Shown one piece after another: positions 13,085 through 26,608 of a DNA stretch of 26,977 nucleotides; within the stretch, counting starts at the first letter, position 1, and each line of letters opens with the position of its first letter. The notes beneath the pieces were generated by a model that was not told where the DNA came from, did not search any database, and saw nothing but the letters and a program-made list of their open reading frames with translations. The DNA lies in the IMG/VR virus record IMGVR_UViG_3300024520_000417, positions 1 to 26,977 of that record; one strand, given 5' to 3'. The position numbers and the translations under genes are program-made. Source of the DNA: a virus.

Positions 13085-13117
13085 AAAAAGCCTGTCAAAT
13101 ATTGGCAGGCTTTTTTT
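13085..13117 (+). terminator. Rho-independent terminator after major capsid gene
   Basis: A 9-bp stem formed by 13090-13098 (GCCTGTCAA) and 13102-13110 (TTGGCAGGC), with one G-T wobble and a 3-base loop, is followed by a run of seven T at 13111-13117. An A tract precedes it, so it may act from both sides. It is the only clear intrinsic terminator in the window. It closes the capsid transcript and would reduce expression of the genes from 13132 on. Confidence 0.9.
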
Positions 13118-15242: not shown

Positions 15243-16253
15243 ATGGGATTATTAGTAACAAAACAAGTTGCAGCGGCAAGTGTTCCGAATTCTCCAACAG
15301 GGACTTATACGATTTTTTTAGACGTAGATGGTATTGAAAAAAAGAAAGATGAGTTTGGGGTTGTTACGTTAACCTCTAGTTCTGGTCAAAATGATAAAGT
15401 AAAAGTATCAGCCGCAGACACAACAGAAGGGTATTTGGAGGGTAAAATATTAGGAACTTCAAATAAAATAGAAGTTATAAAAACAGGTGTAGGAAATGAG
15501 ACTTTTGTTATAAATATTGGGACAGATGTTTTTGATAAGTTGGTTGATGATTCTGACAGTGTTACGGAGGGTGTTGTCAATTTGCTTTTAACTGTAGGTG
15601 AACGTTCTGCAATTGCTACAAATTCAGGGAAAGTATCTAACGCAACTCATACTGGAGAGGTTACAGGGGCTACCGTTTTGACAATTGACCCCTCTTTTAT
15701 TTCAGGAAAAGGGTTAGTTACCGCAACAGGAACAATGGATTTAATCGTTAATGATGGGGGGACTTATCAACGAGTAAAAGCCTCTGATTTCTTATCTGGA
15801 GTTTCAGTGATTCAAAGTTATGCAGAGATGTATTTTAACACTAACAACACAACTGACACTGTTGTAGGAGCTACAAATACTCCCGTAAAAATAATAGGTG
15901 TTACGACTCAGGGGCAGCTTTCGTCTGGTTGGTCTATGCCTTCAGACAATAGATTACTATGGTCGGGTGTAGGAACGCTGAAGTTAAAAGTTGAAATGGC
16001 GATTTCAATTAATAAAGAGCAGGCAGGAGGTGCTGATAATTACAGAATGTATATAAATGTTAATGGCTCTGTTGTTAATAAAACAAAAATGAAGCTCAGA
16101 GGGAATAATAATGATAATGATTCTGCATCAGTTAGCGCCATAATTGATTTACCATCAGGGCAGTATATTGAGGGGTGGATTGAAAACACCGAAAACCCAA
16201 ATGATTTAGAGGTTAATGATTTTTTTATTAACGTTGTTCAAATACTTACATAA
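15243..16253 (+). CDS. Tail fibre / receptor-binding-like protein, 336 aa
   Basis: The N-terminal part (20-110) is beta-rich (TGTYTIFLDVDGIEKKKDEF; KIEVIKTGVGNETFVINIG). Residues 132-145 (SNATHTGEVTGATV) begin a block that recurs in the fibre gene at 24959. It is followed by the 'vNDGGtyqrVkAsdf' stretch. The C-terminal 150 residues (IQSYAEMYFNTNNTTDTVVG ... VEMAISINKEQAGGADNYRM ... GQYIEGWIENTENPNDLEV) look like a single jelly-roll domain, common in receptor-binding proteins. The start is one base after the preceding stop. Its job is probably host binding or particle decoration, by family style rather than a firm match. Confidence 0.75.
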   Translation: MGLLVTKQVAAASVPNSPTGTYTIFLDVDGIEKKKDEFGVVTLTSSSGQNDKVKVSAADTTEGYLEGKILGTSNKIEVIKTGVGNETFVINIGTDVFDKLVDDSDSVTEGVVNLLLTVGERSAIATNSGKVSNATHTGEVTGATVLTIDPSFISGKGLVTATGTMDLIVNDGGTYQRVKASDFLSGVSVIQSYAEMYFNTNNTTDTVVGATNTPVKIIGVTTQGQLSSGWSMPSDNRLLWSGVGTLKLKVEMAISINKEQAGGADNYRMYINVNGSVVNKTKMKLRGNNNDNDSASVSAIIDLPSGQYIEGWIENTENPNDLEVNDFFINVVQILT

Positions 16254-17989: not shown

Positions 17990-19504
17990 ATGGCAATATC
18001 AAACGCAGTAGGCAGCGAGAGAATTTCAAGGGTTGTTGGTTATAAAATAACTAAAGGCAACTTTTCGAATGTAACTCCAAATCTGCCTCAAAGAATAGCA
18101 ATATTAGGTGAAGCAAATACGGCAAATCAGGGTGGTTTAAGTACTACACCTGTTGAGATTACAACATCACAACAAGCTGGTGAGTTGTATGGTTATGGAT
18201 CACCGATTTACAATATTTTAAGAATTTTACGCCCGGTTACTGGTGGTGGAATTGGGGGAATACCAACAATCGTATATCCTCAAGCTTCAGCAGGAGCAGT
18301 GGCAGCAGAAAGAGAAGTAACCCCAGTAGGGTCTGCAACAGCAAACGGAACTCACACATTGATTATTAATGGCCGAGGTTCTGTTGATGGTTCCAGATAT
18401 GATTTTACAGTTGCGGATGGTGATAATCCAGTTGCGATTGTGGCAAAGATGATCACAGCGGTAAACAATGTTCTAGGCGCTCCGGTTATTGGAACAGATG
18501 GAACAGGTAAAATTGTTTTAACTGCTAAATGGGAAGGGTTAACATCGGAGGAATTGCATGTTGCTGTTGATACCAACGGAGCATCATTGGGTGTTACGTA
18601 CGGTGTTGTTAGTTCGGCAGTAGGTGCTGGATCTCCATCAATTACAGCGTCATTAACAAGTTTTGCAGAAAACTGGAATACAGTCGTTGTTAATCCTTAT
18701 GGAGCCGCTGCATTTGATGATTTAGAAGCGTTTAATGGAATACCTGATCCAACAACCCCAACGGGAAGATATCAAGGTATTATAATGAAACCTTTCATCG
18801 CGTTGTATGGAGATAGAACGGATGATCCATCAGTATTAACTGATTCAAGAAAAATACAAGTAACTAATGCATCATGTCCAGCGCCTTTATCAAAAGGTTT
18901 TGATATGGAAGCTGCTGCAAACATGGCATTAAAACATGCTCGTATTGCTCAAGACAGTCCACATTCAGATGTTAATGGATTAACTTATGATGATATGCCA
19001 ACCCCAGAGGATGGTGATATTGGATCAATGGTTTCTTATGATTTCAGAGATTCAATTGTTAAAAAAGGTTCATCAACTGTTACATTGAGTGCTGGGAGAT
19101 ATAAAATAGAAGATTTCGTAACAACATATCATCCTGATGGGGAATTACCTCCGCAGTTTAGATATTGTAGAAACCTGATGTTGGATTTCAATGTTCGTTT
19201 CACTTATTATTTGTTAGAGCAAATTAATGTTGTTGACAAAACTATTGCTGCTGATGATGATGTCATCGGTGTAAGTGGAGTAATAAAGCCTAAAATGTGG
19301 AAGCAAATTGTTGATAACATGGCGGTTGATTTAGGAAAAAGAGCACTTGTTGCTGATGTAGCGTTTATGCAAGATTCGATTGAGGTAGGTATTAGTACTG
19401 TTAATCCTGATCGTTTAGAAACTTTCTTTAAATACAAAAGAACGGGCATTGCAAGAATTGCAAGCACAACAGCAGAGGCAGGATTTAACTTTGGAACAAT
19501 ATAA
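17990..19504 (+). CDS. Contractile tail sheath protein, Mu gpL-like
   Basis: 504 aa (Mu gpL 495). The N-terminus (RVVGYKITKGNFSNVTPNLP) carries the sheath-linking extension. NLPQRIAILGEANTANQG and EITTSQQAGELYGYGSPIYN match the first conserved block (P.rial.g.a). A variable beta domain (about 110-215) is inserted, with TANGTHTLIINGRGSVDGSR and AVDTNGASLGVTYGVV. The C-terminal half (NVVDKTIAADDDVIGVSGVI ... RLETFFKYKRTGIARI) is the polymerising sheath core, with the last strand supplying the inter-subunit link. It surrounds the tail tube and contracts on infection. It stands first in the tail operon, behind a TAnnTTTG element. Confidence 0.93.
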   Translation: MAISNAVGSERISRVVGYKITKGNFSNVTPNLPQRIAILGEANTANQGGLSTTPVEITTSQQAGELYGYGSPIYNILRILRPVTGGGIGGIPTIVYPQASAGAVAAEREVTPVGSATANGTHTLIINGRGSVDGSRYDFTVADGDNPVAIVAKMITAVNNVLGAPVIGTDGTGKIVLTAKWEGLTSEELHVAVDTNGASLGVTYGVVSSAVGAGSPSITASLTSFAENWNTVVVNPYGAAAFDDLEAFNGIPDPTTPTGRYQGIIMKPFIALYGDRTDDPSVLTDSRKIQVTNASCPAPLSKGFDMEAAANMALKHARIAQDSPHSDVNGLTYDDMPTPEDGDIGSMVSYDFRDSIVKKGSSTVTLSAGRYKIEDFVTTYHPDGELPPQFRYCRNLMLDFNVRFTYYLLEQINVVDKTIAADDDVIGVSGVIKPKMWKQIVDNMAVDLGKRALVADVAFMQDSIEVGISTVNPDRLETFFKYKRTGIARIASTTAEAGFNFGTI

Positions 19505-19523: not shown

Positions 19524-19934
19524 ATGGCAACAGGCGGTGACATTATAGAAATAACGTACAATCACCCTACATTGGGTGATGGTACTATTTTCGCAAAAGC
19601 GAATGAAGATAGTACATTTGATTTAGGAGGTTTCCGGTCAAATGATGATAGTGATATGGTTGATGGAAGTGGAGCAATGATTGATCAGATAAACCGTAAA
19701 AGGTGGAAGTTTTCAGTTGTTGTTGCGTGGAACATGAATTCAGCAAATGAATTAGATAAAATTGTTGATTTATCAGGATCTCCAGAATTGGCAGATTGGA
19801 CTTTTTCATCAGTCAACGGGACTGTTTGGGGTGGTTTAGGAAAGCCGGTTGGTGATTACGAAGGTAATGGAAACAATCCAACTTTCACATTGGTGGTATC
19901 AGGTGGAGGTAAATTGAAAAAAATTAGTGGTTAA
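19524..19934 (+). CDS. Tail tube protein
   Basis: 136 aa, immediately after the sheath gene, as in Mu-like and P2-like operons. The protein is almost all beta: IEITYNHPTLGDGTIFAKAN, a STFDLGGFRSNDDSDMVDGS loop, KRWKFSVVVAWNMN, and ADWTFSSVNGTVWGGLGKPV. It ends in a strand rich in Gly (TFTLVVSGGGKLKKISG). Length and strand order fit a tube protein that stacks in hexameric rings inside the sheath. Sequence alone gives a moderate match; the sheath-tube-chaperone-tape measure order makes the call secure. Confidence 0.85.
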   Translation: MATGGDIIEITYNHPTLGDGTIFAKANEDSTFDLGGFRSNDDSDMVDGSGAMIDQINRKRWKFSVVVAWNMNSANELDKIVDLSGSPELADWTFSSVNGTVWGGLGKPVGDYEGNGNNPTFTLVVSGGGKLKKISG

Positions 19935-19954: not shown

Positions 19955-20362
19955 ATGGAAAAGGTAAATTTGGAAACAGCAAGAAAGGAAGTCATGAAAT
20001 GGCTTGATTTCAAAAAAGTAGATCGTGAGAAGATTGAAGATAGTGAAGATAACATAGTTGCATTAGCAAAGGGGATCTGCTCAGGGTATTTAGTATTGGA
20101 TAAGGATTGTAATTTTATTCAAAAACTGAAGTTCCCTATTTTAGACGATGATGGCAATCCGTTCACAACGGAGTTAAAAATGAAGCCTCGTTTAAGAATG
20201 GGAGAAATTGAGGACAAATCTCAAAATCTTCCTGCTGGTAACACATTTGCCTTGATCAGGGCGTATGTCAGTGCATTAACAAACATTAACTCAGAAATCA
20301 TTAAAAAGATGGATTCTGAGGATCAAAAAATCGCTCAAAGCGTAGTGATCTTTTTCCTGTAA
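19955..20362 (+). CDS. Tail assembly chaperone, zero-frame product
   Basis: 135 aa, between tube and tape measure. The sequence is charged and helical, from MEKVNLETARKEVMKWLDFK through RLRMGEIEDKSQNLPAGNTF to LIRAYVSALTNINSEIIKKM, with the end VVIFFL at the TAA at 20360-20362. Contractile- and siphotail phages place two overlapping chaperone frames here, the second made by ribosomal frameshifting. The zero-frame stop follows a C TTT TTC site, and a second frame continues to 20520. The short and the long product would together hold the tape measure during tube polymerisation. Confidence 0.8.
   Translation: MEKVNLETARKEVMKWLDFKKVDREKIEDSEDNIVALAKGICSGYLVLDKDCNFIQKLKFPILDDDGNPFTTELKMKPRLRMGEIEDKSQNLPAGNTFALIRAYVSALTNINSEIIKKMDSEDQKIAQSVVIFFL
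20350..20356 (+). other. Candidate -1 frameshift site, C TTT TTC
   Basis: In the zero frame the codons TTT TTC follow a C. A one-base slip back gives CTT TTT and then CCT, entering the frame that runs to 20520. The zero-frame stop is four bases further on. A stem-loop starts 9-12 bases downstream. The heptamer is close to, but not identical with, the T TTT TTG site of P2, so slippage requires a first-position mismatch. Confidence 0.6.
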
Positions 20363-20520
20363 GTCTGGACTCCCTCAATAATATCGTTAAGTCGGTTGTG
20401 AGGGAGTTTAAGTGGGAACCTGGTGTGATATCCAACATGTATATTGATGATGTAGATCGTCATGGTTTGTTGTATTGGTATAATGATTGTGCTGATGTTG
20501 CTAAAGAATTGAAAGATTAA
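20356..20520 (+). CDS. Frameshift extension of tail assembly chaperone
   Basis: After the predicted slip this frame encodes about 54 residues: PVSLDSLNNIVKSVVREFKW, then EPGVISNMYIDDVDRHGLLY, then WYNDCADVAKELKD and a stop at 20518-20520. The pattern 'FKW-P-hI..h..dD..GL.YWY.d' is what I expect for the T-type extension of tail chaperones. The frame has no ATG or other plausible start before this stretch (a TGA lies at 20317-20319). It is therefore best read as a fused product of about 188 aa with the gene at 19955. It ends 2 bases before the tape measure start. Confidence 0.8.
   Translation, partial: PVSLDSLNNIVKSVVREFKWEPGVISNMYIDDVDRHGLLYWYNDCADVAKELKD
20366..20410 (+). other. Stem-loop downstream of frameshift site
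   Basis: Bases 20369-20377 (ACTCCCTCA) are perfectly complementary to 20399-20407 (TGAGGGAGT). Two wobble pairs and one further A-T pair extend the stem outward to 20366 and 20410, about 12 pairs in total. The loop has 21 bases. It lies inside coding sequence and is well placed to slow ribosomes at C TTT TTC. Confidence 0.8.
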
Positions 20521-20522
20521 TA

Positions 20523-22406
20523 ATGAGCGCTTTTACAATTCCATCGATTTTCATAGCAGTAGACAAAATGTCTGCTCCTGTAAAAAAAATGTCAAGGAAT
20601 ATGACCACCTTTGCTCAAAAAGCAGAGATTGGCGTTGCGCGTCTTGATAGACGAATGAGAAGGTTAACCCCTTCTATTGGCGGTGTAGGAAAACAAATGA
20701 TAGGGTTAGCAGCAACGGGGGCGTTAGTCGCCGGTGTTGGATCTGCAATCAGAACAATAAAAGATTTCGAGCAAGCAAATGCAGATTTGAATGCAAGACT
20801 AGGTAATGCGACATTACCTCAATTAAAACTGTTGAGTACTGACGCTTCTCGCTTGGGAGGTATAACAGCTAAAACAGCTACAGAAGTTGTCGGATTACAA
20901 GAAGCTTTTGCTTCATTAGGGTTCCAAACTCCTGACATTCTTAATATGACTGAATCAACCATTGCAGGGTCAATTGCAATGAATGCTGAGTTATCTGAAA
21001 CCGCTGAACTTGTCGGAGCTGTTATTAAAACATTTGGAGATTTAAAATCGACCGACACAACACAAGTGATTGACCAAATGACATTGGCAACACAAAAGTC
21101 CGCATTAAAATTTGAAAAACTTCAAACATCTTTACCAATAGTTGCGGGGGCTGCAAACGCAGCAGGTATTGGTTTCGAGGAATTATTGTCTTTATTGGGG
21201 AAATTATCAGATGCAGGTATTGACGCTTCAATGTCAGCAAATTCATTAAAAAATATTTTTATAGAAAGCAAGGCAAAAAGTCTGGATTATGGACAGATAC
21301 TTGATAAAATAAAGAATAGTCAAGATAAATTAACGTTTGCTAACACAGAATTTGGCAAACGAGCCGCGGTGTCAGGAACTATTTTGGCTGATAATATTGA
21401 CGAGTTAAAAATATTACAAACCACTCTTGAGTCAGCAAGAAAAGGACAGTTATTGTCAGGTGCAGCACAAGAGGCGGCAGATAAAAGATTAAATACATTA
21501 GCTGGATCATTGACTTTGTTATCTTCTAAATGGGACAGTATAGTATTAAAACAGAACGAAAACACTGGTGCGATTGGCATCATGAATAGAGCAGTTAAGT
21601 TTTTGACAGATAATTTAGAAACTATTGCAGGAACAATTTTAACCTTAGCTGGTGTATGGTTGGGGTTAAAAGTTATACTTTTCGCAACAAGAACAGCTTT
21701 AATTGCTTATAATATATGGTTGGGGGTGTCATCTGCATTAAGTACAACCGCAGCAATTGCAGTTGGTGGTAATGCAACCGCTTTGGCAGCTTATAGTGTT
21801 GCAACTAAAACAGCTACTTTTTTCGTGAAACTGTTTAGAGGAGCACAACTTTTATTAAACATAGCATTAAACGCCAATCCAATTGGTATTCTTATTATTT
21901 CTTTAATTGCATTAATAGGTTTTATTACTTTAGTCGTAAAAAAATATGACACATGGGGCGCTGCTATGACAACCGCAATGGGTCCATTAGGTGATTTAAT
22001 TAGTCTAGTAGTTGAATTCAAAAGAGCGTGGGGAGATATCCAAAAAGCATTTTCAACAGGCGGTATAAAGTCTGCTATTAAAGAAATTGGAAAAGTAATC
22101 TTAAAGTCAATCATAAACCCAATACAACAGGTTTTTGAATTGTGGGGTAAGCTTCCTGGGAAAATGGGAGAGATCGGAGATATGGGAGTTGCTTTAATGC
22201 AAGGAATAAAAGGTGGTTTAGGTATTGAGGCTATTCCAGCACTTAACCCTAAAAAAGCAGAACAAGAGGCGTTGTCTCAAAAAATTGAAGAAACCAAAAC
22301 GACAAATGCAGTGTTTACTGTAAATGCTCCAAAAGGTTTAGTTGATATTAAAAAAGATGATGATTTTCCGTATCTTTCAGGAACTTATAATGGTGTTTCA
22401 AATTAA
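20523..22406 (+). CDS. Tape measure protein
   Basis: 627 aa. The N-terminus (SIFIAVDKMSAPVKKMSRNM) has the usual 'D..sap.kk...n' pattern. Residues 80-340 carry the conserved TMP region with DFEQANADLNARLGNATLPQ, LGGITAKTATEVVGLQEAFA, LGFQTPDILNMTESTIAGSI, and GIGFEELLSLLGKLSDAGID. Hydrophobic segments follow at about 60-80, 360-410 and 445-475 (GTILTLAGVWLGLKVILFAT; NPIGILIISLIALIGFITLV). The protein sets tail length; at roughly 0.15 nm per residue it predicts a tail near 90-95 nm. It starts two bases after the frameshift-frame stop and is the last gene before the baseplate set. Confidence 0.93.
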   Translation: MSAFTIPSIFIAVDKMSAPVKKMSRNMTTFAQKAEIGVARLDRRMRRLTPSIGGVGKQMIGLAATGALVAGVGSAIRTIKDFEQANADLNARLGNATLPQLKLLSTDASRLGGITAKTATEVVGLQEAFASLGFQTPDILNMTESTIAGSIAMNAELSETAELVGAVIKTFGDLKSTDTTQVIDQMTLATQKSALKFEKLQTSLPIVAGAANAAGIGFEELLSLLGKLSDAGIDASMSANSLKNIFIESKAKSLDYGQILDKIKNSQDKLTFANTEFGKRAAVSGTILADNIDELKILQTTLESARKGQLLSGAAQEAADKRLNTLAGSLTLLSSKWDSIVLKQNENTGAIGIMNRAVKFLTDNLETIAGTILTLAGVWLGLKVILFATRTALIAYNIWLGVSSALSTTAAIAVGGNATALAAYSVATKTATFFVKLFRGAQLLLNIALNANPIGILIISLIALIGFITLVVKKYDTWGAAMTTAMGPLGDLISLVVEFKRAWGDIQKAFSTGGIKSAIKEIGKVILKSIINPIQQVFELWGKLPGKMGEIGDMGVALMQGIKGGLGIEAIPALNPKKAEQEALSQKIEETKTTNAVFTVNAPKGLVDIKKDDDFPYLSGTYNGVSN

Positions 22407-24958: not shown

Positions 24959-26608
24959 ATGGCAATACAAAGTTTAACAGACCTTAGAATACAGGTCAAT
25001 AACGATATAAAAACCAACGGAGTCAGAGCGATTACGGGGAATATTATGAATGTCAATCTGATTGATATGATTGATTCCCTTGAGGAGGATTACGATAATC
25101 TGACAACCTCTTTGGATGTTAGATTGACAGCGATTGAGAATCTTGCATTGAAGATATTACAAGACCCTTTAACGGGTTGGGATGCTAGTTCAGGAACTTT
25201 CCCAGGAGGAGGAGCAACGAAGGTAGGTTATTACTGGAATGTAAGTGTTGCGGGAACGGTTGACGGTGTGTTTTTCGATATGGGGGATTCAATAGTTTCC
25301 CTTGTTGATAATGCATCAACAACGGTTTATTCTGGGAATTGGTTTAAAGAAGATAATATTGATCAGGTTTTATCAGTTGCGGGGAAAACAGGAGAGGTTA
25401 CATTGGTTGCAGCAGATATTACAGATTTTTCAACTGCTGTTGGTAGTAATGCTGCGGTTGCTGCAAACACTGCTAAAGTTTCAAATGTTGACACTAATTT
25501 AAGTGAAGGATCTTCAACGACAACAACAGTTAATGTAAATTCTAGTGATGGATTAAACGCAACTTTAACTTCTGCAACCACTGTAAGAGCTGGGTTAATG
25601 AGTAAAGCTAAATTTGATGAAGTCACAGTAAACACTTTGAAAACATCAAACGTAACTCATACAGGAGAGGTTACAGGAGCAACCGCGTTAACGGTTAGCA
25701 GTACAGCGATTAGTAATAAATCAGCTTTGGGCGCTTTGGTTGGAACTGAAGAATTTTTAATAAATGATGCTGGAACTTTAAAAAAGGTCTTAGCGGCAAA
25801 TGTTGGAGGTAACTTAGGTAATCAGGATTTAACGTTAACAGCTAACAGGACTGTTACAATGGGAACTTTTGGATTAGCTTTTCAAGGGAACCAAACATTG
25901 TTTAAGGGTGTTGGTACTATATTCACAACAGCTTCAATTGTTGCTCAAAACTCAGGAGGTAATCAAACTTTAAGGGTTGGTGATGATGGTACATCTCAAT
26001 TCAATTCTCAAGGATCTGTTTATGCAGTTGATATAAGAGCACAAAGTAATGGTTTTGCAAATACAAATAGAGGGTTAAGGGTTGGAGGATCAAGCCCCGC
26101 AATTACACATCTTGAAACTAACAATACGGGTGTTGGTATATTCACAACGGCGCAAACTGGGTGCTCTTTAACTGTACAAGGAAATTCAGGAGGCGCTGTA
26201 GCAAAAATATTCGAAGTAAAAAGCGCGGGTCTGGTTAATATATTCAGGGTGGGAAACTCTCAAAAAACAGCAATAGGGCCAACGGCTACTTTGAAGTTAG
26301 ATTTGGCTAATGTAACACTAGCTGCGTTTGTAAATATAGAGAAAAGTACAGCTACTGTTCCTGCGGTTAACTTCGGGACGGGAGCAACAACCGCGCTTAC
26401 TTTAGATGGCGACATGTACAAAGACGCTACAGCATTTACTTTTGCAAACGGATCAGACTTGATTAAGCTTTATGCACAAGATAATACAGTTGGTTCTGCC
26501 GCATTAGTTGGTGGTGGAGGAACAGCAATTACAGACACGGATACCTTTGGAGGGTTTACACTTCAAAAAATGGCGCAAGTGTTTTTAAATAATGGATTTT
26601 TAAAATAA
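24959..26608 (+). CDS. Tail fibre protein, 549 aa
   Basis: The N-terminal 60 residues (RIQVNNDIKTNGVRAITGNI; LIDMIDSLEEDYDN) form a helical baseplate-attachment segment. SVAGKTGEVTLVAADITDFS (about 139-158) is the common fibre repeat 'G..G.Vtl...DI'. The block SNVTHTGEVTGATALTVS is shared with the 336-aa protein at 15243. The distal shaft (330-500) is Gly/Asn/Thr-rich and beta-helical in style (NQDLTLTANRTVTMGTFGLA; TLRVGDDGTSQFNSQGSVYA). The tip ends in FGGFTLQKMAQVFLNNGFLK. No chaperone or peptidase domain is seen. Position behind gp48-like protein marks it as the main host-recognition fibre. Confidence 0.85.
   Translation: MAIQSLTDLRIQVNNDIKTNGVRAITGNIMNVNLIDMIDSLEEDYDNLTTSLDVRLTAIENLALKILQDPLTGWDASSGTFPGGGATKVGYYWNVSVAGTVDGVFFDMGDSIVSLVDNASTTVYSGNWFKEDNIDQVLSVAGKTGEVTLVAADITDFSTAVGSNAAVAANTAKVSNVDTNLSEGSSTTTTVNVNSSDGLNATLTSATTVRAGLMSKAKFDEVTVNTLKTSNVTHTGEVTGATALTVSSTAISNKSALGALVGTEEFLINDAGTLKKVLAANVGGNLGNQDLTLTANRTVTMGTFGLAFQGNQTLFKGVGTIFTTASIVAQNSGGNQTLRVGDDGTSQFNSQGSVYAVDIRAQSNGFANTNRGLRVGGSSPAITHLETNNTGVGIFTTAQTGCSLTVQGNSGGAVAKIFEVKSAGLVNIFRVGNSQKTAIGPTATLKLDLANVTLAAFVNIEKSTATVPAVNFGTGATTALTLDGDMYKDATAFTFANGSDLIKLYAQDNTVGSAALVGGGGTAITDTDTFGGFTLQKMAQVFLNNGFLK

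Follow-up and report, generated by a model that had tools for sequence, protein, structure and literature searches.

A variant slip site for a probable programmed -1 frameshift in a predicted two-product viral tail chaperone locus

How do ribosomes reach a conserved tail-protein segment whose reading frame is offset by -1 from the gene that precedes it? This question is raised by the tail module of a viral record that we analyzed in its entirety (hereafter the window; 26,977 bases, 36.7% G+C). A first-pass annotation had proposed a programmed -1 shift at a C TTT TTC heptamer, a proposal supported by our comparison of 84 loci and by covariation in a downstream stem. We consider it highly probable, judging from sequence comparison, that the locus encodes a two-product tail chaperone through programmed -1 frameshifting, with a variant slip site that would rely on A-site re-pairing (T_TTC) and a hairpin. 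Recoding of this kind is well known in phages; what is unusual here is the relaxed slip site.

Tail module layout and predicted chaperone identity

The tail module is of contractile type, with all features on the forward strand: a tail sheath protein gene (17990-19504; phrog_165 tail sheath, E 4.9e-83), a tail tube protein gene (19524-19934; phrog_4699 tail tube, E 2.7e-35), a 135-codon gene for the putative zero-frame tail assembly chaperone (19955-20362; phrog_4648, E 9e-11), the -1 frame extension PVSLDSLNNIVKSVVREFKWEPG... (20356-20520; phrog_5697, E 4.9e-14), and a tape measure protein gene (20523-22406; phrog_28, E 2.5e-44; PF10145, E 7.6e-22). The zero frame ends in ...GTG ATC TTT TTC CTG TAA, with the heptamer (zero-frame codons ATC TTT TTC) at 20350-20356 and the TAA stop at 20360-20362; the two are separated by three bases (one codon, CTG), not by four as first described. 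The open stretch of the -1 frame runs from 20320 to 20520, and since it begins only at 20320, the shift must fall within the overlap of the two frames at 20320-20362. Reading after a -1 slip would start at CCT (20356).

Both the 135-aa protein family (phrog_4648) and the extension family (phrog_5697) are of unknown function in PHROGs. The 135-codon gene lies between the tube and tape measure genes, as expected of a tail chaperone. PF10109 (Phage_TAC_7), a family which covers P2 E and Mu 41 or 14, matched 12 of 61 relatives (best 1.3e-4) and was the top family over the set. The window's own 135-aa protein stayed under every Pfam cut-off, a PF10109 search of the records of five relatives returned none, and P2 gpE alone gave a negligible, non-significant direct profile match; PF06528 gave one weak match, in the extension set. 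The extension itself resembles P2 E' (E 3e-4, probability 39%; 'IFHWPP' vs. 'EHHWxP'), a likeness that agrees with the earlier description of it as a typical chaperone extension; it also matches phrog_5697 and is conserved among relatives. A structural model of the 135-aa protein (pLDDT 96) had no structure match in the PDB, and in BFVD it matched a Burkholderia phage Mica protein annotated as a tape measure chaperone (E 5.8e-3, prob 1.00, TM 0.49). On the basis of gene order, the PF10109 matches, and the extension's likeness to E', we assign the locus as the predicted counterpart of the P2 gpE / gpE+E' chaperone pair.

The parallel with P2 is close in layout, with the order FI sheath, FII tube, E/E+E', and T tape measure, an annotated -1 shift, a T-run site near the zero-frame end, and a short extension with an HWPP-like core. 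The two differ in that the P2 slip site is T TTT TTG, against which the window's C TTT TTC is mismatched at the first base, that several codons separate site and stop in P2 vs. one in the window, and that the window, unlike P2, carries a covarying hairpin nine bases downstream; sequence identity between the E parts is too low for them to match directly. Phage lambda shares with the window the two-product logic of gpG / gpGT between the major tail gene and the tape measure gene (PMC5009743), but is a siphophage with an unrelated slip site, G GGA AAG.

Conservation of the -1 relation and of the slip site

As the 135-aa protein alone retrieved no relatives in phage or viral collections, we gathered relatives through the tail sheath. 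Sheath searches yielded loci on viral contigs (L002-L029 and L035-L096) and on genome contigs (L097-L107), the latter nearly all from Bacteroidota according to record titles and including Allomuricauda, Pedobacter, Mucilaginibacter, Christiangramia, and Taibaiella; Flavobacterium phages FCL-2, VK58, and FL-1 and Cellulophaga phages were also in the sample. The comparison set comprises 84 distinct loci, with the window counted in and FL-1 left out.

The extension is conserved throughout this set, and in 84 of 84 loci it lies in the -1 frame relative to the zero frame, with a T-rich site 0-3 codons upstream of the zero-frame stop in every case. The overlap of the two frames is shortest in L013, where it spans 13 bases and contains the T-run alone, so that the shift in that locus has no other place to occur. 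This bears on the alternative that ribosomes shift elsewhere in the overlap, for instance at CAA AAA (20324-20329), which offers a weak A_AAA tetramer ten codons upstream of the window's stop. CAA AAA is not conserved, the L013 overlap leaves room for the T-run only, and the spacing of the downstream hairpin suits the T-run only; we give a shift elsewhere next to no chance.

Homologs of the sheath, tube, chaperone, and -1 extension are present in Ficleduovirus FCL-2 / FCV-1 and Cellulophaga phiSM, which differ from the window in having G GTT TTT or A GTT TTT at the site. Some public records of Ficleduovirus and Cellulophaga phages, that of FCL-2 among them (L030:3980-4156), leave the -1 extension unannotated, and in the VK58 and phiSM records it is entered as a separate hypothetical ORF. 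FL-1 (L031:3977-3996) is the exception to the -1 relation: its site is A TTT TTT CA and its extension is in +1/-2, because the shift there is genuinely -2/+1 or because the record has the length of the T-run wrong.

These annotations raise the alternative that chaperone and extension are two separate genes, with the extension starting independently at GTG 20398 or by re-initiation after the TAA at 20360. In the VK58 and phiSM records the extension is indeed a separate CDS starting at TTG, and the window has an in-frame GTG (20398) as well as an in-frame ATG (20437), contrary to the first-pass claim that the frame has no start codon; what stands of that claim is that no start codon precedes the conserved part of the domain. 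Across the family, 18 of the 84 loci have no ATG, GTG, or TTG ahead of the conserved core, and the position of the start is not conserved. The window's GTG abuts the covarying stem, and its use would remove the start of the domain. Separate genes would also give no reason why the T-run sits so strictly just ahead of the stop, and this arrangement seems to us extremely improbable. The two frames of the window overlap, the second in -1, and the bases they share hold a slippery motif, as is usual for a programmed -1 shift.

The sites themselves are T TTT TTT in 36 loci, T TTT TTC in 27, T TTT TTG in 5, T TTT TTA in 3, G GTT TTT in 7, C TTT TTC in 3, and A TTT TTC, A GTT TTT, and G CTT TTT in 1 each. 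The heptamer thus aligns across relatives, with canonical T TTT TTN at the same spot in 71 of 84 loci and a T_TTN tetramer in the other 13. Where the site reads TTT TTY, the preceding base is T in 63 of 67 cases, whereas codon use predicts 32 (log10 P about -22, with related sequences counted as independent); the codons carrying this T specify Val, Ile, Leu, Ser, Gly, Ala, and Phe, and the first Phe codon is TTT, vs. a 70% background.

The four exceptions to the preceding T are C TTT TTC in the window, L036, and L037, and A TTT TTC in L035. All four fall among the five closest sheath sequences, a group that also includes L002, which has T. Within this small group TTTTTC CTG TAA/TGA is kept while the preceding base varies, and the first heptamer base has, as far as these five loci indicate, become free. 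A sequencing error behind the window's C was rejected, since L036 and L037 share C TTT TTC and L035 has A.

The site had been flagged at first pass as non-canonical, and it indeed differs by one base from the family consensus T TTT TTY. Neither C TTT TTC nor A TTT TTC has the canonical X_XXY_YYZ form, and T_TTC has the other accepted bacterial form, the Z_ZZN tetramer. Among the Z_ZZN / X_XXZ_ZZN motifs of Sharma et al. 2014 (PMC4066793), the window's heptamer contains T_TTC but falls outside the 64 heptamers tested, because it is not of X_XXZ_ZZN form. In E. coli, A-site re-pairing is the main rule for -1 shifting, the order of tetramers is A_AAG >> U_UUC > U_UUU, and T_TTC ranks second among 16 tetramers when a downstream stimulator is present (PMC4066793). 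C TTT TTC retains T_TTC, with imperfect (near-cognate) P-site re-pairing, and we class it, by its sequence, as a relaxed form of T TTT TTY, the family site, which falls in one class with P2's T TTT TTG. Our literature search found no precedent for CUUUUUC as a slip site, nor for frameshifts in Flavobacterium phage tails.

Transcriptional slippage offers another route to the same product, with RNA polymerase slipping in the T-run and the -1 product made from edited mRNA. Bacterial polymerases can slip on runs of 7-9 T, and runs of this length occur in 65 of the 84 loci. In the window and its close relatives, however, the run is five T, which is too short for polymerases to slip on efficiently, yet the architecture is the same. 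Moreover, transcriptional slippage involves stem-loops that the nascent RNA forms 5' of the run, whereas the covarying hairpin sits downstream of it, where it would aid a ribosome. We regard polymerase slippage as very unlikely and favor a shift by the ribosome.

The slip-proximal hairpin and a proposed mechanism

The window's stem pairs a 5' arm at 20366-20377 with a 3' arm at 20399-20410 and begins nine bases 3' of the heptamer, within the 4-10 bases expected of a downstream stimulatory structure. As first-pass annotation had it, the stem has 12 pairs; Watson-Crick pairing holds for the inner nine of them (20369-20377 with 20399-20407). It encloses a small inner helix (20383-20386 with 20393-20396) that is less conserved. 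The predicted energy is -20.8 kcal/mol (z -4.8), and none of 200 shuffles was as stable. All five members of the small group keep the stem (z -4.8, -4.9, -4.9, -3.2, and -5.8). In a gap-free alignment (A2), 6 of the 12 pairs show two-sided changes and 88% of cells pair; the covariation score was reached by 0 of 500 shuffles, and the signal was lost upon sliding the stem partner by 1-3 columns. An Rfam search returned nothing.

Across the wider family, the region just after the site has a mean z of -1.42, vs. about 0 to -0.5 upstream. Slip-proximal z is below -2 in 25 of 84 loci (30%) and -2 or weaker in the remaining 59, and we rejected the slip-proximal hairpin as a family constant on this count. 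Upstream Shine-Dalgarno stimulators are not expected in this group of Bacteroidota phages: just 1 of the window's 32 genes has an SD-like motif, and the slip site has none upstream.

From this arrangement we infer the following course of translation. The majority of ribosomes would terminate at TAA 20360, yielding the 135-residue chaperone. A minority would pause at the hairpin nine bases 3', with tRNA-Phe on TTT in the P site and tRNA-Phe on TTC in the A site, and slip one base backwards; the A-site tRNA would re-pair in full (TTC to TTT) and the P-site tRNA with one first-position mismatch (TTT to CTT). The likely path is a slip of both tRNAs that tolerates one P-site mismatch, or a slip led by the A site. 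Reading on in the -1 frame (...VVIFF-PVSLDSL...) would produce a fusion of about 189 residues with the junction VVIFFPVSLDSL. The architecture, the conserved -1 relation and site, and the covarying stem are observed, and the shifting itself, its rate, and the roles of the two products are inferred; for the roles we follow the lambda model (PMC5009743), by analogy with which the short form would coat the tape measure protein and the extension of the fusion would recruit tube subunits. C TTT TTC is probably tolerated owing to the strong hairpin, which all five group members retain. This group forms a natural series with T, A, or C before TTTTTC and a strong hairpin in each, and poses the question of whether a hairpin can replace P-site re-pairing. 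More broadly, the lambda/P2 chaperone frameshift appears to be kept in a large and poorly described group of Bacteroidota phages, in which the extension often goes unannotated.

Terminator-like hairpins within the extension

A family-wide fold scan revealed a second structure signal 60-120 bases past the slip site. A strict scan for terminator-like elements, defined as a stem with a minimum of 8 pairs and, immediately 3' of it, a 7-base stretch with 6 or more T, located a hairpin and T-run in the extensions of 28 of the 84 loci (L003, L006, L008, L010, L013, L017, L020, L021, L024, L026, L028, L029, L044, L051, L056, L057, L059, L065, L073, L075-L077, L083, L085, L092, L093, L096, and L107). 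Their density is 18.6 per 10 kb in the extension vs. 0.4 elsewhere on either strand, and synonymous-codon shuffles within extensions gave a mean of 2.2 loci and a maximum of 7 in 100 trials. The elements lie 63-208 bases past the slip site, mostly 60-110, and upstream of the tape measure gene.

They occupy several codon positions and registers, with examples including GGCCACC-N10-GGTGGCC TTTTTATT, encoding W-P-P...I-G-G-L-F; GTCTGTATC-N5-GATGCAGAC TTTTTT, encoding S-L-Y-L-D-D-A-D-F-F; and AGCCGATC...GATCGGCT TTTTTT. The pairs covary in both main sets, even across amino-acid changes. On a quick tree, presence of the element requires 14 changes, at least 7 of them forced by well-supported branches. 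Element and slip-proximal hairpin occur together in 2 of 28 loci, vs. a slip-proximal hairpin in 23 of the 56 loci lacking the element (p 0.001, kinship ignored). The window's extension has no terminator-like element, its branch having the slip-proximal hairpin instead, and inspection of T-runs in the P2 and lambda extensions revealed no such element.

These patterns suggest that the extension may also serve as a termination region ahead of the tape measure gene. The simplest hypothesis would be a terminator that trims tape measure expression, sited where few ribosomes go. A more elaborate idea, which we advance tentatively and consider rather doubtful, is that the extension doubles as a terminator such that the -1 frameshift would set the ratio of the chaperones and also how much tape measure mRNA is supplied: ribosomes ending at the zero-frame stop would leave the RNA bare and let the terminator form, and the few frame-shifting ribosomes would cover the terminator RNA and let the polymerase read on. 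If the extension hairpins work in this manner, they would provide a simple means by which translation gates tail gene dosage. We found no precedent in the literature searched for terminators gated by frameshifts, the nearest idea being frameshifting in the ermC leader, which unfolds downstream RNA (PMC5009743).

In four further loci (L032, L062, L103, and L106), a terminator-like hairpin lies between the tube and chaperone genes, some 430-480 bases 5' of the slip site, an alternative place for the terminator where the extension has none. Elsewhere in the window, a strong terminator-like hairpin (AAGCCTGTCAAATATTGGCAGGCTTTTTTT, about 13088-13117) follows the major capsid gene; because TTG 13102 falls inside this hairpin, the gene called from that codon probably starts later. 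Finally, the window proteins encoded at 15243-16253 and 24959-26608 have in common a similar short stretch, THTGEVTGAT.LT...IS.K, which suggests that they may carry repeated fibre-like modules.
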